Assembly: GCF_001999325.1 (NCBI RefSeq)
Contig: NZ_MVAR01000004.1
Coordinates: forward strand, 11,330-75,329
Reading direction: 5' to 3'
DNA from: Thioalkalivibrio versutus
Lineage (GTDB): Bacteria > Pseudomonadota > Gammaproteobacteria > Ectothiorhodospirales > Ectothiorhodospiraceae
DNA length: 64,000 bases
Below are positions 6,906-23,716 of this stretch, one piece after another (within the stretch, counting starts at the first letter, position 1; each line of letters opens with the position of its first letter). The notes under the pieces are model-generated. The model did no database searches. It was not told where the DNA came from and was given only the letters and a program-made list of their open reading frames with translations. The position numbers and the translations under genes are program-made.

Positions 6906-7684
6906 TCGATCCGCGCGCGGACGTCCACCCCAGCGCCGAGATCGACAGCTCGGTGACGATCGGGCCGTTCTCGGTCATCGGTGCCAATGTGAAGATCGGC
7001 GCGGATACCTGGGTGGGCCCGCATGTGGTGATCAACGGACCGACCGAGATCGGGCGGGAAAACCGAATCTTTCAGTTCTCCTCGATCGGGGAGGAGCCTC
7101 AGGACACCAGCTATCGGGGTGAACCCACGCGGCTGATCATCGGCGATCGCAACGTGATTCGGGAGTCGGTAACGCTGCACCGCGGAACCGAGAAGGGGCT
7201 GGGTGAGACGGTCATCGGGCACGATAACCTGATCATGGCGTATGTCCACATCGCGCACGACTGCACCATCGGGAACGGCATCATCTTCTCCAATGCCACT
7301 TCGCTTGCCGGGCACGTGGAGATCCAGGATCACGCAACGCTGGGTGGTTTCACCCTGGTGCATCAGTTCTGTCGCGTGGGTACCTACGCCTTCACCAGCA
7401 TGGGTGCGGCGCTGAACCGTGACCTCCCGCCGTATTGCCTGGCGAGCGGCAACTATGCGCGGCTGATCGGGATCAACAAGGTTGGCCTCAAGCGCAACGG
7501 TTTCTCCAATGACGCCATCCAGGCGCTCCACCGGGTATTCATCCAGGGAATGCGTGGACGCGCCGGACGCGAGAGTCATCTGGACGCCATGTTCGAGGAG
7601 ACCGAGGTGCCCGAGGTGCGCAACCTGATCGCATTCGTGCGCGGCAGTCGCCGCGGTATCCTGCGCGGCGGTCGTCCGCACTGA
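6902..7684 (+). CDS. lpxA: UDP-GlcNAc (or 3-amino analogue) acyltransferase LpxA
   Basis: LpxA makes the first acyl transfer of lipid A synthesis from a 3-hydroxyacyl-ACP. The 260-residue chain starts at a GTG overlapping the fabZ stop (GTGA). It consists of hexapeptide repeats; His119 in AYVHIAHDC matches the catalytic His125 of E. coli and His116 matches His122. The residue aligned with the E. coli hydrocarbon-ruler Gly173 is Met167 (in YAFTSMGAAL), the substitution associated with C10 selectivity in Pseudomonas aeruginosa. The adjacent gnnA/gnnB-like genes raise the possibility that its true substrate is UDP-GlcNAc3N, giving an amide rather than ester link. Confidence 0.96.
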   Translation: MIDPRADVHPSAEIDSSVTIGPFSVIGANVKIGADTWVGPHVVINGPTEIGRENRIFQFSSIGEEPQDTSYRGEPTRLIIGDRNVIRESVTLHRGTEKGLGETVIGHDNLIMAYVHIAHDCTIGNGIIFSNATSLAGHVEIQDHATLGGFTLVHQFCRVGTYAFTSMGAALNRDLPPYCLASGNYARLIGINKVGLKRNGFSNDAIQALHRVFIQGMRGRAGRESHLDAMFEETEVPEVRNLIAFVRGSRRGILRGGRPH

Positions 7685-7751
7685 CGCAGTCGCCGCTGGG
7701 CAGGACCCTGCGTGCTGCCCAAGCGTTTGCTGCCCAAACGAACCGTCGCCC

Positions 7752-8918
7752 TTAAATCGACTTCTCGTTGTCGCTTAGTTGGCCGTGGTGCAGGAGCTCT
7801 TGCGCCATTTCGGCCACGCGGCGGTCGGCTCCACCATTGCCCAGGCGAACGCGCACCTGCGCCAGGCGATCACGCATCGCTTCCAGGGCCTCGGGCCGGT
7901 CGATGAGATCCGCGGCATCGCGCGCCAGACGTTCGGCGGTGGCATCGTGTTGCAGGTACTCGGGCACCAGGCGCTCGCCGCCCACGATATTGACCAGGGC
8001 GATATTCTCGACCCGTACGAGCCGCGAGAAGACCGCGTGGCTCAGGGCCCCCATGCGGTAGAAGACCAGCATGGGGGCCCTGAGCAGACCGGCCTCCAGG
8101 GTTGCGGTGCCGGACGCAATCAGCAGCAGGTCGGCCCCGGCCATCAGGGAATGGGTTCCTGCGTCCCCGCCCACGAAATGCAGGGGCAGGCCGTCAGACG
8201 CGGCTAGGGCCCCCAAGTGTTCGGTGGTGACTCCCGGCGCCATGGAGGCCACGAACTGGATGTCCGGGTGCGATACGTGGAGGCGGCGGGCGGTGTCCAC
8301 GAGCATGGGCCAGTGGCGCTTCAGTTCGCCGTTGCGGCTGCCGGGGAGAAGACCGACCAGGCGCGTATTGGCCGCGAGGCCAAGCTGTTCGCGAATCGGC
8401 TGTTTGGGCGGCTGCACCCGGTCCACAAGCGGGTTTCCGACATAGCGTACTGGCACCCCGGCCTTCTCGTAGACGTCGGTCTCGAAGGGAAAAAGTACCG
8501 CCATCGCGTCCACGCTGCGCTGGATGCGCTTGATCCGGCCCGAACGCCACGCCCACAGTTGCGGGCTGACATAGAACAGCACGCGGATACCGAGGCGGCG
8601 GGCGTGGGCAGCCAGGCGCAGGTTGAACTCCACGTAGTCCACCAGGACCAGCAGGTCCGGGCGGTGGGTCTCCAAATGCTGGCACATGCGCCGGAACAGG
8701 CGGCGCAGGCGCGGGTAGTTGACCAGCACATCGACCAGGCCCACCACGGCCAGTTCGGAGACGTCGATCAGGGTGTCGACCCCGGTGGCGCGCATCTGCG
8801 TCCCGCCCATGCCCGTGTAGCGGAGACCGGGCTCCAGTGCCGAGAGTTCGTGGACCAGCCCCGCCCCGAGTGCGTCACCGGAGCTCTCGCCGGCGCAGAT
8901 CACGACATGCTGCGTCAT
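7752..8918 (-). CDS. lpxB: Lipid-A-disaccharide synthase LpxB
   Basis: A 388-residue GT19 glycosyltransferase that condenses UDP-2,3-diacylglucosamine with lipid X to form the lipid A disaccharide at the inner membrane. The N-terminal CAGESSGDALGAGLV motif and the LLPGSRNGELKRHWP region are typical. In most gammaproteobacteria lpxB follows lpxA on the same strand; here it is on the opposite strand, convergent with lpxA across a 67-bp gap, and is the last gene of a minus-strand group with two amino-sugar genes. Confidence 0.96.
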   Translation of the reverse strand: MTQHVVICAGESSGDALGAGLVHELSALEPGLRYTGMGGTQMRATGVDTLIDVSELAVVGLVDVLVNYPRLRRLFRRMCQHLETHRPDLLVLVDYVEFNLRLAAHARRLGIRVLFYVSPQLWAWRSGRIKRIQRSVDAMAVLFPFETDVYEKAGVPVRYVGNPLVDRVQPPKQPIREQLGLAANTRLVGLLPGSRNGELKRHWPMLVDTARRLHVSHPDIQFVASMAPGVTTEHLGALAASDGLPLHFVGGDAGTHSLMAGADLLLIASGTATLEAGLLRAPMLVFYRMGALSHAVFSRLVRVENIALVNIVGGERLVPEYLQHDATAERLARDAADLIDRPEALEAMRDRLAQVRVRLGNGGADRRVAEMAQELLHHGQLSDNEKSI

Positions 8919-8958
8919 GACCGGTTGAGGCCCCCTGTGTAAGCGATGTGGCGTGGCG

Positions 8959-10056
8959 TCACGCGAGGGCGGCGCGGATCTTCCCGCAGATCATGTCGAT
9001 GGTCGCATCCTCGAGTTCCGGGAACACCGGCAGGGACAGACAGCGCGCGGCGACGTCTTCGGTGACGGGCAGCGATTCCGGCCGGTTCGGGAGATCGGCG
9101 AAGGCCTTTTGCTGATGCAGGGGTACCGGGTAGTAGATCGCGCAGGCCACGTCCGCAGCCTTGAGGGCCTCCATGATCGCGTCGCGATGATCGGTCAGCA
9201 GCGTGTACTGGTGGTAGACGTGGACCCCGATGCCGTCCTCGAACGGCACTTCGACCGGCAGCCCGGCCAGGCCATCGCGATAACGTGCCGCCACCCGGCG
9301 GCGTTCGGCGTTGTAGGTGTCGATATGCGGCAGCTTCACCCGCAGGATCGCCGCCTGCATCTCGTCCAGGCGGCTGTTGTAGCCGATCTCGTCGTGGTAG
9401 TAGCGCACGCTGGAACCGTGGTTGCGCAATCGGCGCAAGGTATCGGCGGCAGACGGGCAGTTGGTGGTCACCAGACCCCCGTCGCCGAAGGCCCCGAGGT
9501 TCTTGCTGGGGAAGAACGAAAAACAGCCGAAGGCGGTGGCCGCGCCGGTCTGTACGCCATCGACCGTCGCGCCGAAGGACTGTGCGCAATCCTCGACGAT
9601 CAACACCTTGTGTTTCTCGGCGATGGCCTGCAGGCGCGGCATGTCGGCCGGCTGGCCGAACAGGTGGACCGGCAGGATCGCGCGGGTGCGCTCGGTGATG
9701 GCCGCCTTGACCTGGTCCGGGTCGATGTTGAAGGTCCGTGGGTCGATGTCTACGAATACCGGGTCGGCCCCGACATAACGGATGGCTTCGGCGGTGGCAA
9801 TGAAGGTAAACGGGGTGGTGATGACCTCGTCGCCCGGGCCGATGCCGGCTGCGGCCAGCGCCAGATGCAGGGCATCCGTGCCGGAGGCACAGGTGATCGC
9901 GTGTTCCACGCCCAGGTACTCGGCGAGCTCCTGCTCCAGGGTCTGCACGTTGGGGCCGAGGATAAAGCGCGCACCGGCCAGCACCTCCTGTAGCGCGGCA
10001 TCGATTTCGGGGCGCAGGGTCTGGTACTGGCGCTGCAGGTCGACCATCGGGATCAC
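8959..10056 (-). CDS. gnnB: DegT/DnrJ/EryC1/StrS aminotransferase, probable GnnB
   Basis: A 365-residue PLP-dependent sugar aminotransferase. The PLP lysine is in FFPSKNLGAFGDGG, with the upstream SGTDALHLAL and VEDCAQSFGA motifs of the family. The start is a GTG overlapping the stop of the upstream oxidoreductase (GTGA); an ATG three codons later is possible. Its place between a Gfo/Idh dehydrogenase and lpxB, next to lpxA, matches the gnnA-gnnB pair of Acidithiobacillus ferrooxidans, which converts UDP-GlcNAc to UDP-GlcNAc3N for amide-linked lipid A. The family and fold are clear; the exact substrate is inferred from context, and a WbpE/WlbC-like O-antigen role is the alternative. Confidence 0.8.
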   Translation of the reverse strand: MIPMVDLQRQYQTLRPEIDAALQEVLAGARFILGPNVQTLEQELAEYLGVEHAITCASGTDALHLALAAAGIGPGDEVITTPFTFIATAEAIRYVGADPVFVDIDPRTFNIDPDQVKAAITERTRAILPVHLFGQPADMPRLQAIAEKHKVLIVEDCAQSFGATVDGVQTGAATAFGCFSFFPSKNLGAFGDGGLVTTNCPSAADTLRRLRNHGSSVRYYHDEIGYNSRLDEMQAAILRVKLPHIDTYNAERRRVAARYRDGLAGLPVEVPFEDGIGVHVYHQYTLLTDHRDAIMEALKAADVACAIYYPVPLHQQKAFADLPNRPESLPVTEDVAARCLSLPVFPELEDATIDMICGKIRAALA

Positions 10057-11066
10057 GGCTTGACTCCTGTGGGGTTCGCGTCGAGGTGGCTGTGCGGGCC
10101 GTCGGCCCGGCTCATGATGTTCAGGTTCTCGTAGACCAGGTCGGTGATGCGGCTGGCCGTCTCCAGGGCGCGCTGGCCGTCGCGGCCACTGACCACGACC
10201 GGTCCCTGACCGCGCACGGCGGCCACGAAGGCCTGGATCTCGGCCAGCAGGGCGTCGGCCTCGTCGAAGACACTCTCCGTGCGGTGAATCGCAGGGGCTC
10301 CCGTCTCCGGATCGGGTTCGCCAATGTGGTTCAGTGACAGGATGCGGTTCTGGAAGTCCACCGAGGCGTAGGCATGTGACTGGAAGATGCGCATGCGGCG
10401 CTCGGACTTGGTGCTGATGCGACTGGATGTCACGTTGGCTACGCAGCCGTCCGCGAATTCCAGTCGGGCATTGGCGATGTCGATGTCGCCGGTCAGCACG
10501 CGGGCGCCGGAGGCGCGAATGTCGGTCAGCGGGGCATCCACCAGCGACAGGATGATGTCGATGTCGTGGATCATCAGATCGAGCACGACCGACACGTCGG
10601 TGGCGCGCGGCTTGTAGGGCGCCAGGCGGTGCGACTCGATAAACCGCGGGTGCAACGGGGTCTCGGTCAGTCGGCGTAGCGCGGCATTGAAGCGTTCCAG
10701 GTGCCCGACCTGGAGGACGACGCCCTGTTGCTCGGCGATCTGGTTCAGCGTCTCGGCCTGCTCCAGGGTGGCCGTAATCGGCTTCTCGACCAGGACATGA
10801 CAACCGGCCTCGAGGAAGTCCCGGGCGATGTCGAAGTGCAGGGTGGTCGGCGCGGCGATGGAGACCGCATCGACCTGACCGATCAGGGCGCGATGGTCGG
10901 TCTCCGCGCGGCAGCCGTGCTCCGCCGCGACGCGGCTGGCGGTTTCGGAATCGGCATCGACCACGGCAACCAGTTCGGTGTCCGGCAGCGCGGCGTATTT
11001 GGCGGCATGCCATTTGCCAAGATGGCCCACGCCGATAGCGGCGCAGCGTAACGGAGATTGGGACAT
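10053..11066 (-). CDS. gnnA: Gfo/Idh/MocA oxidoreductase, probable GnnA (UDP-GlcNAc 3-dehydrogenase)
   Basis: A 337-residue NAD(P)-dependent sugar dehydrogenase. The N-terminal Rossmann motif is IGVGHLGKWHAAKY and the conserved VEKPIT and QVGHLERFN segments of the Gfo/Idh/MocA family follow. Paired with the downstream aminotransferase (4-bp overlap), it would oxidise the 3-hydroxyl of UDP-GlcNAc so that the partner can install an amino group. It is the first gene of the minus-strand gnnA-gnnB-lpxB group and diverges from rnhB across a 119-bp gap that must hold both promoters. The substrate is inferred from context. Confidence 0.78.
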   Translation of the reverse strand: MSQSPLRCAAIGVGHLGKWHAAKYAALPDTELVAVVDADSETASRVAAEHGCRAETDHRALIGQVDAVSIAAPTTLHFDIARDFLEAGCHVLVEKPITATLEQAETLNQIAEQQGVVLQVGHLERFNAALRRLTETPLHPRFIESHRLAPYKPRATDVSVVLDLMIHDIDIILSLVDAPLTDIRASGARVLTGDIDIANARLEFADGCVANVTSSRISTKSERRMRIFQSHAYASVDFQNRILSLNHIGEPDPETGAPAIHRTESVFDEADALLAEIQAFVAAVRGQGPVVVSGRDGQRALETASRITDLVYENLNIMSRADGPHSHLDANPTGVKP

Positions 11067-16329: not shown

Positions 16330-17602
16330 TCCCGGTGCCGGGGCGCTCGATCCTGTAGCCGCGGCGCTGCGGGACTTCCTCCAGGCGCATCCCGGCTATC
16401 GCCAGGTGCGCATCGCCTTCAGCGGCGGTCTCGACTCGACCGTGCTGCTCCACGCCGCGGTGCGCCTGGGTATCCCCAACCTCGAGGCCATGCACGTGGA
16501 TCATCGCCTGCGTCCGGACTCCGGCGAGCAGGTCGAGCACTGCCGCGCCTTTGCACAGGCACTGAACTGCCCGTTCCGGCTCCGTACCCTCGGCTCACTC
16601 GACACCCGTGGCTCCGGCGTGGAGGCCGCGGCGCGCGAGGCACGCTATGCGATGCTGCGCGAAGGGCTGGACGCTACGGGCATCATCCTGGCCGCGCAGC
16701 ATGCGGACGATCAGGCAGAAACGTTCCTGCTGGCCGCCCTGCGCGGCAGCGGGCCCGAAGGGCTGCAGGCGATGCGGCCGCTGCGCCGCGAGGGCGAGAC
16801 CTGGCTGGGGCGACCCTTGCTGGGCCTGCCCCGCGAGGCACTGGCCGCGTTGGCGGAGCAGGAGGGCCTCGACTGGTATGACGATCCCAGCAATCAAGAT
16901 CCCCGATTCGACCGCAATTTCCTGCGCCAGTCGGTGCTGCCCTTGTTGCGGGAGCGATTTGATGGCGCGGCCGGGCTGGCGCGCGCTGCTGCCTGGCAGC
17001 AGGAGGCGGTCGGCCAGCTCCGTCAGCATTTCGGCGAGCTTCTGGAAGAAGTGCGGGATCGGCTGACCGGCAGCCTGGACCTTCAGGGTTTGCGCGGGCT
17101 CGACGCGGATAACCAGCGTGGCCTGCTACGGTACTGGCTGCGCGAGCAGGGCCTTCGGCCGCCCGGCCACGACCGCCTGGGTGAATTCCTGCGCCAGGTC
17201 CTCGTGGACAACCCCGAGGCCTCCCCCGCCGTGGAATGGGATGGCGGATGGATGCGGCGTTATCGCGATCAGCTGCACGCCGGGCCGAAGGAGGAGGCTG
17301 CGGGTCCGCCGCCCGAACAGCCCTGGCCGGCCGGTCAGCCGGAACTGATTCTGGCAGACGGGCGCCGCCTGACCCGGGAGATGCTGCCGCGGCTCGGCGT
17401 TGACCGCGAGGCCGCCCTCACCGTTAGCTATCGAAGCGGGGGCGAGGTGGTCGCCACCCCCGCCGGGCGCCGATCCCTGAAAAAGCTGATGCAGGAGCGC
17501 GGGATCGCCCCCTGGGAACGCAACCGGGTTCCGCTTTTGTGTCAGCTGGATGGAGCGATTGTGGCGGTGCTCTGGCCCGGGTTGGTTCACGCTGGGAGTT
17601 GA
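16304..17602 (+). CDS. tilS: tRNA(Ile)-lysidine synthetase
   Basis: TilS adds lysine to C34 of the tRNA-Ile CAU anticodon, changing both its charging and its codon reading to AUA. The PP-loop ATP pyrophosphatase motif SGGLDST is near residues 39-45, followed by [10 protein letters not shown] and [11 protein letters not shown]. The C-terminal half has the TilS substrate-binding domains ([24 protein letters not shown]). The start is a GTG overlapping accA by 26 bp in another frame; no ATG fits better. 432 residues equals the E. coli length. Confidence 0.95.
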
Positions 17603-17661
17603 CGCGCCTGTCCAAATCGGACAATTCTTGGGTCGTATTCAGGGGTGCGGGTGAGCGGTAC

Positions 17662-18426
17662 GTGACAGGTTTCGCGGCACAATGCGGACGACGTACGGGC
17701 ATGGGGGTGCTGGCGGCCGGGATGTTGCTGGCCGCGCCTCTGGCCGCGGACTCGCTGATGCTCACGACCGAGAGCTACCCCCCGTTCAATTTCGAGACGG
17801 AAACCGGCGAGCTGGACGGGATCTCCATCCGGGTGATGGATGCCCTGCTGGATGTCGCCCAGGTGGACGCCGAGATCCGCCTGCTGCCGTGGAGTCGGGC
17901 CTACGCCGAGGCTCAGTCGGACCCTGGTACCTGCGTCTTTTCCACCACGCGCACCTCCGAACGTGAAGACCTGTTCACCTGGGTCGGTCCTCTCGTGGAA
18001 AACCAGTGGCATGCGTTCGTGCTGGAGGGGTCCGATGTGGACGCGCAGTCTCTGGAGGATCTGGAACGCTACCGCGTCGGGGGCTATCGAGACGATGCCG
18101 TGGCGCTCTTCGTTGAGGGCCGGGGCATCCCCGTGGATACCGCACCGAATGACCGGCTGAATGCGCGCAAGCTTGCGGCCAACCGGATCGATGTATGGGT
18201 CAGCGGTGAACATCTGGCCCCGTGGTATGCCCGTCAGGAGGGGATCGGTGAACTCCGGTCCCTGTTCGCCTTCAACGATACCGTGATGTCCCTGGCCTGC
18301 CACCCGGAAACCGCGCGAGCCCCGCTGGATCGCATGCAGGAGGAACTGGATGCGATGCGTGCGGACGGGCGCTATGCGGCCATCGTGGAGGATGTCCTGG
18401 ACAGCAATGGAGAGCGCAATGACTGA
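17662..18426 (+). CDS. Periplasmic solute-binding protein, family 3 (SBP_bac_3), first gene of Sia-type operon
   Basis: About 254 residues with an N-terminal signal peptide (hydrophobic GVLAAGMLLAAPLA, cleavage near ADS) followed by a type II periplasmic binding fold: TTESYPPFNFE, then GELDGISIRVMDALL and LPWSRAYAEAQ. Such proteins bind amino acids or related small ligands. No ABC permease or ATPase is nearby; instead its 3' end overlaps the SiaB homologue by 8 bp, so it may be a ligand sensor for the signalling operon rather than a transporter part. The GTG at 17662 is preferred; the ATG at 17701 would leave a very short signal sequence. The ligand cannot be read from the sequence. Confidence 0.8.
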   Translation: MTGFAAQCGRRTGMGVLAAGMLLAAPLAADSLMLTTESYPPFNFETETGELDGISIRVMDALLDVAQVDAEIRLLPWSRAYAEAQSDPGTCVFSTTRTSEREDLFTWVGPLVENQWHAFVLEGSDVDAQSLEDLERYRVGGYRDDAVALFVEGRGIPVDTAPNDRLNARKLAANRIDVWVSGEHLAPWYARQEGIGELRSLFAFNDTVMSLACHPETARAPLDRMQEELDAMRADGRYAAIVEDVLDSNGERND

Positions 18427-19009
18427 CGCAGCCGAGGCCCGGACGGAATCGTCGGCCCTGATCGCCGAGGAGGTGCTGGGCTTTCAGCGCAACATGACGC
18501 GGCGCGGGATCATCTTTTCGTTCACTGGCTACATTTCCGAGGGCATCCTGAAGGCCCTGGGGGATGCACTGCGGCAGAAAATCCGACTGGAGTCCACCGA
18601 TACGAAGACCGTGAACCGCGTCTTTTCGGTATTCGTGGAACAGGTGCAGAACGTGATTCGCTATTCGGCGGAGCGTATCGAGCACGACGCGGAGCCCCCC
18701 GTCGAGCTGAGCTCCGGGATGATTACCGTCGGGTCGGAAAACGGCCGCTTCTTCGTCATTTGCGGCAACGTGATCGGGCGCAAGGATGCCGACACCCTGG
18801 CCGTGCGCCTGCGTGAGCTCGCGGGCATGGACAGCGATGAGTTGCGCCGCTTTTACAAGGAAAAGCTGCGGGAACCACCGGACGAAGGCAGCAAGGGCGG
18901 CAGCATCGGCCTGATCGAGATCGCACGCCGGGCAAGCGAGCCAATCCAGTTCGACTTTCAGCATCTCTCCGATGCGCAATCCTATTTTGTCCTGAAGGCC
19001 TATATCTGA
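18419..19009 (+). CDS. siaB: SiaB family protein kinase (DUF6272)
   Basis: A 196-residue protein resembling Pseudomonas aeruginosa SiaB, the kinase that phosphorylates SiaC. Recognisable parts are RRGIIFSFTGYISEGIL, the N-box-like EQVQNVIRYSAER and the C-terminal GSIGLIEIARRASEPIQF with its glycine-rich stretch, consistent with a GHKL-like ATP-binding fold. It overlaps the binding-protein gene by 8 bp and the siaC stop/start follows as TGATG. The assignment rests on these motifs together with the three partner genes. Confidence 0.82.
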   Translation: MTDAAEARTESSALIAEEVLGFQRNMTRRGIIFSFTGYISEGILKALGDALRQKIRLESTDTKTVNRVFSVFVEQVQNVIRYSAERIEHDAEPPVELSSGMITVGSENGRFFVICGNVIGRKDADTLAVRLRELAGMDSDELRRFYKEKLREPPDEGSKGGSIGLIEIARRASEPIQFDFQHLSDAQSYFVLKAYI

Positions 19010-19401
19010 TGGCAGTCGTCGAGACCATTGAACACAAGGCAACCGACCGCACCCCGGCCGTCGTTTTCGATTTCGCGGCGGGGCAGTACCGGCTGTCCGG
19101 CGAGTCGTATCCGGAAGATGCCGCGAACTTCTACGGCCCGCTGACTCAGGGGTTGCGGCAGGCGATCGAGGACCGGGCCAGCGACGAGGTGGAGTTCACC
19201 GTGGAAATGATCTACTTCAACAGTTCGACTGCGAAGGCATTGATGAACATGTTCCAGATCCTGGAAGAGGGCGCCGAGTCGGGTCTGAAGGTGCGGATCA
19301 ACTGGTGTTACCACGATGACGACGAGACCATGGAGGAGTTCGGCGAGGACTTCTCCGAGGATTTCGAACACGCTGACTATCGAATGTGTCCGCTGACATG
19401 A
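19009..19401 (+). CDS. siaC: SiaC family regulatory phosphoprotein (DUF1987)
   Basis: A 130-residue protein of the DUF1987/SiaC family. In P. aeruginosa, unphosphorylated SiaC binds and activates the diguanylate cyclase SiaD, while SiaB-phosphorylated SiaC does not. The family hallmark YFNSSTAKALMNMF (residues 69-82) is present; Thr74 or a neighbouring Ser is the likely phosphosite by analogy. The C-terminus is strongly acidic (DDDETMEEFGEDFSEDFE). It sits between siaB (1-bp overlap) and siaD (ATGA overlap), as expected for subunits made in fixed ratio. Confidence 0.88.
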   Translation: MAVVETIEHKATDRTPAVVFDFAAGQYRLSGESYPEDAANFYGPLTQGLRQAIEDRASDEVEFTVEMIYFNSSTAKALMNMFQILEEGAESGLKVRINWCYHDDDETMEEFGEDFSEDFEHADYRMCPLT

Positions 19402-20267
19402 AGGCCCCCTCCCGAGAGGACCCGATGAATCCTGCTACCCGGCCACGGGAGGGCCAGGAAATGGAGAGGCTCGCGGACTTCTCCCTGTTCGAGCAGGAAA
19501 AGTCCGTCATGCAGCGCTCCGAGCAGATGCTCGAGGCGCTGGATGCGGTAGGCGATGGCGTGAAGGTGCTCGCCAAGGCCTATTCCGAGAGCTATCGGGC
19601 GCAGCGTCGCATGATGCGCATGAGCGACCGCATGCAGGCGGATCTGCAGGAGGCCAACCGCCAGTTGCGCGAGCAGGCGGAGCACCTGGCACAGCTCAAC
19701 AATGCATTGTCCGACGAGGTGCGCGAGCGCGAGCGCCTGACGGCCGAGCTGGAGCGCCTGGCGCTGGAGGATGCCCTGACCGGCCTGTTCTCGCGTCGCC
19801 GGGTGATTGACTGCGTGGAGGGCATGGCGGATAGCGTCGGTGAGGAATCGCGTTCGCTCACCGTGATGATGCTGGATCTCGACGACTTCAAGGCGTTGAA
19901 CGACACCCACGGCCATGCCGCCGGCGATTTCGCCCTCGAGAGCTTTGCCGACATCCTGCGGGGCGAGCTGGGGGCGGAACAGTACGCTGGGCGCATGGGT
20001 GGGGAAGAATTCCTGGTAGTGGCGGCGGATCTGGATTCCGAAGCGGCAGTCGCGCTGGCCGAGCGCATTCGCTCGTCGGTGGAGAATGCATCGCTGCACT
20101 GGAAGGACGAACCGCTCGCGCTGGCGGTTTCCATTGGTCTGGTTATCACCACGAACCCGTGGCCGGACGCGGGCGAGCTGGTGGCTCTGGCCGATGACCT
20201 GCTCTATCGGGCCAAGAACGAGGGACGCAACCGTGTCATCGTGCAAATGCACGGCGAACGCGGGTGA
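19398..20267 (+). CDS. siaD: SiaD-like diguanylate cyclase (GGEEF)
   Basis: A 289-residue soluble protein with a long coiled coil (about residues 60-130, Gln/Glu/Arg-rich) followed by a GGDEF domain. The catalytic loop reads RMGGEEF and DLDDFKALNDTHGHAAGD supplies the metal and substrate residues, so it should make c-di-GMP from two GTP. The RxxD product-inhibition site normally placed five residues before the loop is absent (GAEQ instead), suggesting no classical feedback. The N-terminal segment EQEKSVMQRSEQM probably binds the SiaC homologue. The ATG overlaps the siaC stop; an in-frame GTG at 19386 is an alternative. Confidence 0.9.
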   Translation: MKAPSREDPMNPATRPREGQEMERLADFSLFEQEKSVMQRSEQMLEALDAVGDGVKVLAKAYSESYRAQRRMMRMSDRMQADLQEANRQLREQAEHLAQLNNALSDEVRERERLTAELERLALEDALTGLFSRRRVIDCVEGMADSVGEESRSLTVMMLDLDDFKALNDTHGHAAGDFALESFADILRGELGAEQYAGRMGGEEFLVVAADLDSEAAVALAERIRSSVENASLHWKDEPLALAVSIGLVITTNPWPDAGELVALADDLLYRAKNEGRNRVIVQMHGERG

Positions 20268-21943
20268 TGGCGGGCGGCACCCGCCGGAATCGTAGCCTTG
20301 TCGCCAAGCTGGCCGTCGCCACGCTGCTGGCGGCGCTGGCGCTGAGCCTTCTCAGCAGCGCCTATGTCATTGCCTCAGACTGGCATGCCTTCCGGGCCGA
20401 GACCGGGGAACAGATCGACCGTCTGCAACGCCTGGTAGAACCACCCGCCGCCGAGGCGGCCTTCCAGTTGAGCGCCGCCCAGGCCGATTCCCTGGTCCAG
20501 GGCCTGCTGGTATTCGATAAGATCCGGCGGGTCGAGATCCTCGACGACTTTGGCAACACCCTTGCGGAGGATGCCCAGGAACGCACCCAGACCGGTGGCG
20601 AATGGGCGCACTGGCTCTTCGGTGATCTGCAAACCCATGAGCGTGAGCTGCGCCACCCTGGTACCCGCGGAAATATCCAGGGCGTGGGCGTCCTGCGCGT
20701 GGAACTGGACCCCGGCGTGCTGGGGCGGGCCTTCGTCAACCGGCTGCAGACCGGGGTCGTTACCAGTGTGACCCAGGCGGTGATCGTCTCTCTGGTGGTG
20801 GTTGTACTGTTCTATCTGCTGATGCTCCGTCCGATGTTGAAGATTTCGCGTGCGGTGGCGGACACCGATCCGGAGCAGCCCGCGCACTGGCCGATGCCGC
20901 GCCTGGGCCATCACGAAAACGACGAGCTGGGGGCGCTGGGGCGTTCGCTGGATCGTTTGCTGCGGGCCTTTCAGGCGGGGCTGGACGCGCGCGACGGGGC
21001 CCGGGGCGAGCTCAAGGCCCTGAATGCGGACCTCGAGCGGCGCGTCGAGGACCGCACCCGGCAGTTGGAGGCCGAGAAATCCGAGACGGAACGGGCACTG
21101 GCTAAGGTGGACGAGGCCAACCGTGAGCTTGAACGCAGTAATCGCCTGGTGGTGGAGAGCATCCGCTATGCTCGCCGCATCCAGACCGCCATGCTGCCGG
21201 ACAAGCATTCCCTCGATGGTCACATGGACGAGGTGCAGATCTACTGGGAGCCTCTGCACCTGGTGGGTGGCGACTACTTCTGGGTCGAGGCCATCGACGG
21301 ACACAGCATCCTGGTGGTGGCGGACTGCACCGGCCACGGTGTACCGGGTGCATTCATTACCCTGGTGGTGGCCTCGGCGCTGGATCGCATCCTGCACGAA
21401 CACCGCTTGCTGGAGCCCTCGGCCATCCTGCGCGAGATGGACCGACTGGTACGCTCGCGGTTGCGTCAGGATGGCTATGACTCCGACTCGGACGACGGGC
21501 TGGAGGCCGCGGTCTGCGTGTATCGTCCGGAGGACCGCAAGCTGGCCTTTGCCGGGGTCGGGCTGCCGTTGCTGATCGACCGCGGCGGCGAGGTCGAGGA
21601 GATCCGGGGCGTACGCGGCGGCCTTGGCTACCGCAGCCTGGAACCGGCCCAGCCCGTTGACCACGAGGTCGACGTGGAGCCGGGCACCGAATTCTTCCTG
21701 ATCACCGATGGCGTGCACGATCATGTCGGCGGAGAGCCGCCGCGATTGTTTGGTCGGCGGCGGTTGCGCCAGGTGCTGACGGACAAGAGTGGCCGCGATC
21801 TGTCGGCCAAGATCGATGCCGTGGTCCGGGTGCTGGAAGATTATCGCGACGGCGAGCCGCGGCGTGACGATATGACCCTGGTGGCCTTCCGGCCGTTGTC
21901 ATCCCGGGCTGGAAACGAGGCACTGCCCCCACCTTCCGATTGA
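20267..21943 (+). CDS. siaA: SiaA-like membrane PP2C/SpoIIE serine phosphatase
   Basis: About 558 residues: a membrane helix near residues 12-35, a periplasmic domain of about 130 residues, a second helix (AVIVSLVVVVLFYLLML), a HAMP-like linker, a coiled coil and a C-terminal SpoIIE/PP2C domain. Metal-binding motifs are GGDYFW, VVADCTGHGVPGAF, LITDGVHDH and RRDDMTLV. In the Pseudomonas Sia system SiaA dephosphorylates SiaC and so turns on c-di-GMP synthesis. Here it is last in the operon, not first. The ATG overlaps the siaD stop by one base (TGATG); a GTG one codon upstream is possible. Confidence 0.88.
   Translation: MAGGTRRNRSLVAKLAVATLLAALALSLLSSAYVIASDWHAFRAETGEQIDRLQRLVEPPAAEAAFQLSAAQADSLVQGLLVFDKIRRVEILDDFGNTLAEDAQERTQTGGEWAHWLFGDLQTHERELRHPGTRGNIQGVGVLRVELDPGVLGRAFVNRLQTGVVTSVTQAVIVSLVVVVLFYLLMLRPMLKISRAVADTDPEQPAHWPMPRLGHHENDELGALGRSLDRLLRAFQAGLDARDGARGELKALNADLERRVEDRTRQLEAEKSETERALAKVDEANRELERSNRLVVESIRYARRIQTAMLPDKHSLDGHMDEVQIYWEPLHLVGGDYFWVEAIDGHSILVVADCTGHGVPGAFITLVVASALDRILHEHRLLEPSAILREMDRLVRSRLRQDGYDSDSDDGLEAAVCVYRPEDRKLAFAGVGLPLLIDRGGEVEEIRGVRGGLGYRSLEPAQPVDHEVDVEPGTEFFLITDGVHDHVGGEPPRLFGRRRLRQVLTDKSGRDLSAKIDAVVRVLEDYRDGEPRRDDMTLVAFRPLSSRAGNEALPPPSD

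Positions 21944-23716
<1,773 letters not shown>

Follow-up and report, generated by a model that had tools for sequence, protein, structure and literature searches.

In the 64,000-nt stretch of Thioalkalivibrio versutus DNA analysed here (contig NZ_MVAR01000004.1, positions 11,330 to 75,329; hereafter the window), the gene for a secreted family-3 solute-binding protein (SBP) heads an operon that otherwise encodes homologues of SiaB, SiaC, SiaD and SiaA, the components of the partner switch that controls cyclic di-GMP (c-di-GMP) synthesis in Pseudomonas. The best explanation of this arrangement, to which a probability of about 0.7 is assigned, is that the SBP docks in a ligand-dependent manner on the periplasmic domain of the membrane phosphatase SiaA and sets its activity, and hence the states of SiaC and SiaD and the level of c-di-GMP. 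It is also fairly probable that the input is a portable cassette, made up of a free SBP and a LapD-like periplasmic domain, that is plugged into different c-di-GMP outputs: the SiaA PP2C/SiaC switch in Thioalkalivibrio, Nitrincola, Chromatiaceae, some Rhodospirillales and betaproteobacterial metagenome-assembled genomes (MAGs); an slr1658-type PP2C switch in another Thioalkalivibrio genome (G014); and, directly, a GGDEF cyclase in Halomonadaceae. The genes and their families, the catalytic and motif residues, the conserved operon and the recurrent association between SBP and sensor domain are read from sequence. The step from SBP to SiaA would follow from that association, and is strengthened by the fact that the SBP and the sensor domain stay together as the other genes change.

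The five genes lie on the + strand at 17662-21943, flanked by tilS and pyrG (Table 1), and each gene start overlaps the preceding stop: by 8 bp for SBP/siaB, 1 bp for siaB/siaC, 4 bp for siaC/siaD and 4 or 1 bp for siaD/siaA, siaA starting either at a GTG (20264) or at an ATG (20267). Open reading frames (ORFs) and family scores confirm what a sequence-only reading of the window, made by a model, had proposed, namely five head-to-tail overlapping genes in the order SBP, siaB, siaC, siaD, siaA. Sequence features of a Sia partner switch are present: a SiaB-family kinase, the N-[ST]-S site of SiaC, a SiaD with a stalk and a GG[DE]EF motif, and a membrane PP2C, SiaA. SiaB, SiaC and the PP2C part of SiaA all match solved Pseudomonas structures (6kko_A, 6k4f and 6k4e_A, respectively). 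The NCBIfam equivalogs for the P. aeruginosa Sia proteins were, however, missed (123.2 bits for a cut-off of 225 in SiaB, 84.1 for 150 in SiaC, 144.8 for 290 in SiaD and 197.9 for 700 in SiaA), and the window proteins are therefore homologues that fall outside the P. aeruginosa Sia orthologue group.

SiaC was found in 22 of the 47 genomes of the family, at 29 places, and the 28 besides the window were compared. At the 13 orthologous loci the five genes always appear in the window order (12 of the loci are long enough to show tilS and pyrG), with the SBP gene directly before siaB and the SBP 70-91% identical to that of the window. The 8-bp SBP/siaB overlap is identical in the 10 loci in which it is readable; in the other three, the siaB alignment starts inside the gene. 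The position of siaA at the end and the overlap of the SBP gene with siaB, both pointed out in the sequence-only reading, are thus conserved in relatives, as is the SBP gene itself. An accidental neighbourhood was considered and rejected, given that level of identity and the retention of the SBP through gene rearrangement. The other 15 sia loci of the family have the order A-B-C-D and no SBP match (siaB was not picked up in L034), and one Thioalkalivibrio genome (G026, loci L048 and L053) carries both a Pseudomonas-type A-B-C-D set and an SBP-B-C-D-A set. When the genus was surveyed, an SBP match appeared in 15 of 30 genomes, 14 of them (window included) at the sia locus; in the fifteenth, G014, the SBP (34% identity) comes after a PP2C protein that shares the sensor domain of SiaA. 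The closest named relatives of the window are Thioalkalivibrio strains, with SiaC values of up to 96% among the matches listed.

The loop between the transmembrane (TM) helices of SiaA measures 133-138 residues in Thioalkalivibrio relatives, close to the ~130 residues first estimated for the periplasmic domain, and an alignment of 17 sequences shows a conserved domain in it. Pseudomonas-type SiaA proteins of the same family have a loop of ~276-295 residues; the one scanned (L030) matched dCache_1 below the cut-off (38 of 45 bits). The model of the window domain (confidence, pLDDT, 83.5) has the order helix-helix-strand-strand-helix-strand-strand, and the structure that matches its fold best is 4u64, a periplasmic domain of LapD type (Z 11.8, 128 of 131 residues, 3.7 Å, 10% identity); WalK-type domains (Z 11.8 to 10.4) come next and many PAS/Cache domains after them, and LuxQ (3c30) scored Z 7.8. 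The Pfam model of LapD gave no match. The domain is classed here no further than as PAS-type and LapD-like.

Beyond the family, the best 80 GTDB loci for SiaC were analysed, a set chosen by similarity to the window and hence biased. SBPs were detected in them with three profiles only, T (the window type), X and Y, and a locus described below as lacking an SBP may carry one of another family. Type T is found in Thioalkalivibrio as SBP-B-C-D-A, with siaBCD intervening between the SBP gene and siaA, and in Nitrincola as A-SBP-B-C-D; in a separate sample it also appeared in G263, where two SBPs precede A-B-C and a SiaD-like match lies further along. Type X was present at nine loci (Chromatiaceae, Rhodospirillales and two betaproteobacterial MAGs), eight of them ordered B-C-D-X-A; L122 has an additional stalk gene, and L125 has several siaA genes and no siaB match. 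Type Y, sought in sia loci only, was present at 15 loci, in 12 of which it stands directly before a siaA found by profile (nine Azospirillum, one Roseomonas-labelled genome and two MAGs). From 109 loci, 84 distinct SiaA proteins were drawn, window excluded. Among the 25 with the window-type sensor, a class that is partly the product of construction since the sensor profile was built partly from the same proteins, an SBP gene accompanies 23 in their loci (14 T and nine X, in three gene orders), a count that is independent of the profile. The search of genomes for SBP genes beside sia sets suggested by the sequence-only reading therefore turned out positive. That reading had regarded the SBP as an addition; it is indeed present here, unlike in P. 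aeruginosa, but it represents one of several recurrent arrangements rather than something special to this genome. Comparison of the T, X and Y profiles gave no confident link between the three groups (probabilities of 5.6 and 3.9%), and their kinship is drawn from matches to PF00497, which exceed the cut-off in L125 (X), L176 (Y), L107 (both) and L120 (T) and fall below it in L140 and L151 (X) and in L127 (Y).

The same sensor domain is also found on other outputs. In a less selected sample of 369 genomes of the class, the best SBP match outside the genus was that of G408 (44%), where two SBPs are followed by a protein in which a GGDEF domain is combined with the sensor domain of SiaA (39% over 236 residues). 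The second SBP overlaps the start of this sensor-GGDEF protein by 4 bp, and there were no sia genes among the ORFs listed for 17 kb around the locus. The sensor domain was detected at E < 1e-40 in three genomes of the sample (G000, G020 and G408), all three with SBPs; none of the five weaker matches (1e-7 to 1e-13) is directly coupled to an SBP, although two of them have an SBP-like ORF within 1 kb. G408 is assigned to Halomonadaceae because a named Halomonas plasmid record with this arrangement is related to it, and 57 of the 201 genomes of that family have the sensor domain at E 1e-15 or better. In the best 30 of these 57, all 30 loci show an SBP sequence immediately upstream of the sensor and a GGEEF output. 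Four Halomonadaceae genomes with this arrangement contain 12-18 SBP_bac_3 matches each; assuming ~4500 genes, a chance SBP neighbour would be expected in an estimated 1% of cases, roughly. Since the 30 loci share ancestry and amount to few independent events, the weight of the association rests on the differing arrangements: SBP-B-C-D-A, A-SBP-B-C-D, B-C-D-X-A, SBP-SBP-sensor/GGDEF and GGDEF-slr1658-sensor/PP2C-SBP. The last of these is that of G014 (L253:1178-5427), where a GGDEF protein, an slr1658-family regulator, the sensor/PP2C protein and the SBP stand in a row without SiaC, a related switch of different composition. In G263, a 1142-aa fusion near siaB-siaC unites NMT1-type, SBP_bac_3, PAS and SiaA-type SpoIIE domains. 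The inherited unit thus looks like an SBP plus a sensor domain, with exchangeable outputs, and the proposal made at first reading, that the SBP senses a small molecule and presents it to SiaA, gains support from the fact that SBP and sensor are kept together on both PP2C and GGDEF outputs.

In a tree of the SBPs, those of Thioalkalivibrio form one group (support 97/94) and that of Nitrincola groups with the first Halomonadaceae SBP (98/86), while the deeper forks are open and several branches long. Plasmid cargo was considered as a possible reading, and the SBP-sensor unit may or may not be mobile. On plasmids, the window sensor domain as sole query found no match; the sensor profile matched a 1.8-Mb Halomonas plasmid record, behind an SBP sequence, and of 38 plasmid records matching the SBP, the 20 listed are all below 45% identity. 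On the plasmid of Halomonas sp. PA16-9 (L251:5089-7902), two SBPs precede the sensor-GGDEF protein, the second being split over two reading frames. The Rhizobium leguminosarum plasmid pSK03 (L252:2574-5663) encodes a HAMP-PAS-GGDEF-EAL protein, with a T-like SBP (31% to the window SBP) 24 bp later; the periplasmic part of that protein does not match the SiaA sensor profile. Around siaB-siaC of G263 (L205:3-4877 and 7520-10945, contig C1), the 1142-aa fusion is accompanied by a 1625-aa protein that has NMT1 and PAS domains and SBP_bac_3 in three stretches.

In the proposed mechanism, the secreted SBP would pick up a small molecule in the periplasm, and one of the SBP conformations would dock on the PAS-like periplasmic domain of SiaA. 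The signal would cross the membrane along the second TM helix and, by way of a HAMP-like linker, reach the PP2C domain, which would take the phosphate off SiaC, probably at Ser72, opposing the kinase SiaB; unphosphorylated SiaC would then bind the SDRMQ stalk of SiaD and turn c-di-GMP synthesis on. The contact between SBP and SiaA, the ligand (perhaps a carboxylate-bearing compound other than a standard alpha-amino acid) and the sign of its effect on the phosphatase are inferred. The steps among A, B, C and D were established in Pseudomonas (PMC7647112, PMC8457831), and are carried over to the window system by analogy with that biochemistry. In P. aeruginosa, the N67/T68/S69 region of SiaC is the phosphosite region, T68 being phosphorylated, and the stalk motif S82...Q86 of SiaD receives SiaC (PMC8457831). 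The window system has in common with SiaABCD of P. aeruginosa the four protein families, the PP2C and GGDEF active-site motifs, the SiaC phosphosite region and the SiaD stalk motif, the SiaC-motif pattern matching the window SiaD a single time. It differs in having the SBP gene first and siaA last, in the SiaA input (a short PAS-like domain instead of a long dCache-like one), in the phosphosite residue (Ser instead of Thr) and in the distance between the SiaD stalk motif and GGEEF, which is 125 residues compared with 97 in Pseudomonas-type loci (+28, four heptads).

A number of observations weigh against the docking explanation. Many sia loci carry no SBP by the three profiles. Two SiaA proteins with a matching sensor (L117 and L145) have none in the stretch examined, and among the 43 other short-loop SiaA proteins 12 are accompanied by Y, one by T, and one is a paralogue of L125 not adjacent to the X gene, which leaves 29 without an SBP (among them 22 from Methylobacterium together with a close relative, and four from Ruegeria). 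Eight of the nine long-loop SiaA proteins also lack one (the exception, a paralogue of L125, lies 1.7 kb away from the X gene), and so do all seven SiaA proteins without TM segments. In the class sample, SiaC occurs in 10 of the 369 genomes, and two of the 10 SiaC places outside Thioalkalivibrio carry SBPs or an SBP fusion, both in G263. Type X gave 24 matches, spread over 16 of the 398 genomes searched, and not one of them has siaA, siaC or the sensor in the surrounding ~1.5 kb (one lies near a GGDEF; some stretches end at contig ends); the idea that type X SBPs are dedicated to SiaA is therefore unsupported. In P. aeruginosa, neighbouring SBP and kinase genes are not always functionally linked (PMC11113362), so that gene association falls short of proof of binding, and SiaA of that species has been linked to membrane perturbation and functions without any known SBP (PMC12834913).

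The SBP might bind SiaA as a ligand-independent partner, an SBP-fold protein reporting redox state, envelope stress, its own abundance or proteolysis. Periplasmic partners of this kind exist, YfiR regulating YfiN and LapG regulating LapD. The LapD-type fold match of the sensor would fit such a role, as would the weak, sub-cut-off NCBIfam matches of the G014 sensor/HAMP region to HK_near_YfiR_like and DgcN/YfiN. When the SBP was aligned with AncQR (alignment only, ≤25% identity), the Asp of amino-acid binders, which we take to contact the amino group of the ligand, fell on an invariant Gly, a further point in favour. This alternative is nonetheless unlikely: the best model of the SBP (pLDDT 91.6; the other four, 63-82) predicts an intact SBP fold, and the motif TTRTxxRExLFxWVGP, invariant in nine SBP sequences (the window, seven Thioalkalivibrio and Nitrincola), suggests that a binding site has been retained. 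The PF00497 match of the SBP (49 bits) spans residues 35-243. Foldseek places 3h7m, an SBP-fold sensor domain of a kinase, first among the matches of the SBP model, a point in favour of docking. The AncQR alignment also keeps the Arg that presumably contacts the ligand carboxylate; since the Arg is kept and the Asp position is an invariant Gly, it weakly suggests a ligand that bears a carboxylate and is perhaps other than a standard alpha-amino acid.

It is likewise improbable that SiaA senses directly, responding to membrane state or to a ligand within its PAS-like fold, with the SBP performing a separate job such as that of a periplasmic enzyme descended from SBPs or a partner of another receptor. 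Family-3 SBPs can turn enzyme, and cyclohexadienyl dehydratase is among the weak matches of the window SBP; many short-loop SiaA proteins have no SBP beside them. The tie of P. aeruginosa SiaA to membrane perturbation, with no SBP involved (PMC12834913), points the same way. Direct sensing leaves unexplained, however, why SBP and sensor stay together across PP2C and GGDEF outputs. As for transport, the source genome (2.83 Mb, 100% complete by the tool's estimate) has four SBP_bac_3 places, and a search of it for the polar amino-acid permease family came back empty, a control search being positive in 11 of 14 genomes. The 11 permease places of the source genome (10 proteins) best match betaine/choline, nitrate-type, oligopeptide, molybdate, phosphate and anion-type permeases, several of these best matches lying below the family cut-offs. 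It is accordingly very unlikely that the SBP works for an importer whose genes lie elsewhere, its expression with the sia genes being incidental, even though SBP_bac_3 proteins usually serve amino-acid importers and the SBP has weak, sub-cut-off NCBIfam matches to their SBPs; a cognate importer of the usual kind was rejected, in line with the first reading of the SBP as one without an ABC transporter. Elsewhere in the same genome (L058:1366-2481; G000, contig C24) lies, by inspection, a GluR0-type potassium channel-like protein with an SBP_bac_3 domain.

At the gene level, the SBP and SiaA of the window show what defines an SBP-gated receptor pair: a free secreted SBP, a periplasmic receptor domain and no transporter of their own. 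LuxP-LuxQ and other pairs of SBP and sensor kinase likewise join a free SBP to a PAS/PDC-type periplasmic receptor domain; LuxP-LuxQ differs in its kinase output and SBP family, the window having a PP2C and a family-3 SBP. YfiR-YfiN and LapG-LapD share a small PAS-like periplasmic domain controlled by a periplasmic protein, but their partners are not SBPs and their outputs are GGDEF/EAL rather than PP2C. A close precedent for gating by an SBP is NspS-MbaA of Vibrio cholerae, whose genes overlap (PMC8967002); it has in common with the window a free periplasmic binding protein, no transport role in the pair and the overlap with the gene for a membrane c-di-GMP enzyme. MbaA, however, is a directly acting GGDEF-EAL enzyme and NspS binds polyamines, whereas the window has a PP2C working via a SiaB/SiaC relay and a family-3 SBP. 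RmcA of P. aeruginosa also uses SBP_bac_3 as a c-di-GMP input, in its case as a fused domain that binds L-arginine (PMC8846402) and not as a free secreted protein. No description of an SBP coupled with SiaABCD, and no example of an SBP-gated protein phosphatase, was found in the open-licence literature searched (titles and abstract beginnings). Accounts of the SiaA stimulus differ, naming surfactant stress and carbon supply (PMC7647112) or membrane perturbation on cooling (PMC12834913). A secreted, soluble SBP linked to SiaA would let this be addressed, for this branch if no other, by a ligand screen; the sensor-GGDEF version of Halomonadaceae, in which the cyclase is driven directly, gives the same input a simpler read-out. 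If the docking explanation is true, the sia form would be an SBP-gated protein phosphatase and would reveal what this SiaA-type branch senses; SBP gating would extend from kinases, chemoreceptors, cyclases and phosphodiesterases to a PP2C phosphatase and a partner-switch relay. The recurrence of the pairing with other outputs suggests how such switches receive their signal.

Table 1. Features of the SBP-sia operon in the window. Pfam cut-offs (bits): PF00497, 26.4; DUF6272, 26.6; PF09345, 24.5; GGDEF, 23.8; SpoIIE/PP2C, 25. NCBIfam SiaB_fam_kinase (NF038262) cut-off, 85 bits.
Feature	Position	Strand	Basis
SBP_bac_3 secreted solute-binding protein, 254 aa	17662..18426	+	GTG start; PF00497 49 bits; model with SBP fold
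SBP likely signal peptide, residues 1-29	17662..17748	+	sequence inspection only; no lipobox Cys at cleavage region
siaB, SiaB-family kinase homologue	18419..19009	+	DUF6272 144.6 bits; SiaB_fam_kinase 209.5 bits; 6kko_A 7.5e-26
siaC, regulatory phosphoprotein homologue	19009..19401	+	PF09345 134.4 bits; 6k4f match 1.6e-16
SiaC N71-S72-S73 (aligns with P. aeruginosa SiaC N67-T68-S69)	19219..19227	+	alignment
siaD, stalk + GGDEF diguanylate cyclase	19398..20267	+	GGDEF 121.8 bits
SiaD stalk motif SDRMQ (S76-Q80), putative SiaC-binding	19623..19637	+	like P. aeruginosa SiaD S82...Q86
SiaD primary I-site position, GAEQ (RxxD in relatives)	19971..19982	+	motif comparison
SiaD active-site GGEEF, from residue 201	19998..20012	+	motif comparison
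siaA, membrane PP2C-type (SpoIIE) phosphatase homologue	20264..21943	+	SpoIIE 95.6 bits; 6k4e_A 8e-46
SiaA periplasmic PAS-like sensor domain with edges	20366..20773	+	alignments; model pLDDT 83.5; fold match 4u64 Z 11.8
SiaA PP2C (SpoIIE) domain	21296..21892	+	GGDYF, DCTGHG, TDG and RRDD motifs in or near domain

A scan of 17300-22100 for promoters found no sigma-70-like site, and co-transcription of the sia operon with tilS is therefore possible; the same interval contains four terminator-like sites, compared with 2.1 (standard deviation 1.3) in shuffled sequence. The viral-contig scan found no relatives of SiaC. In Ruegeria (L162 and L186), a secreted 148-aa protein is encoded directly upstream of siaA, the position of the SBP elsewhere; the L162 protein, the one scanned, had no Pfam or NCBIfam match.

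In SiaD, the RxxD I-site is gone from all 13 Thioalkalivibrio loci, being replaced by GAEQ, GADQ, SAEQ or GTDQ, and is retained in all 42 other motif-bearing SiaD homologues listed (L109-L115 were left out as duplicates and L101 as not SiaD). Because of this loss, c-di-GMP may not cap SiaD output at the primary I-site in Thioalkalivibrio. A phmmer search with the SiaD stalk yielded nothing useful. Behind siaB-siaC at five loci (L121:7399-8448, L152:7380-8393, L126, L134 and L164), a SiaD-like stalk that carries the SiaC-binding motif (VSDRLQ) is joined to the ATPase domain of a histidine kinase where SiaD has GGDEF. These loci belong to Azospirillum, Magnetospirillum and relatives, and in some of them a response regulator adjoins, so the SiaC switch with its stalk-kinase fusion may govern a two-component system.

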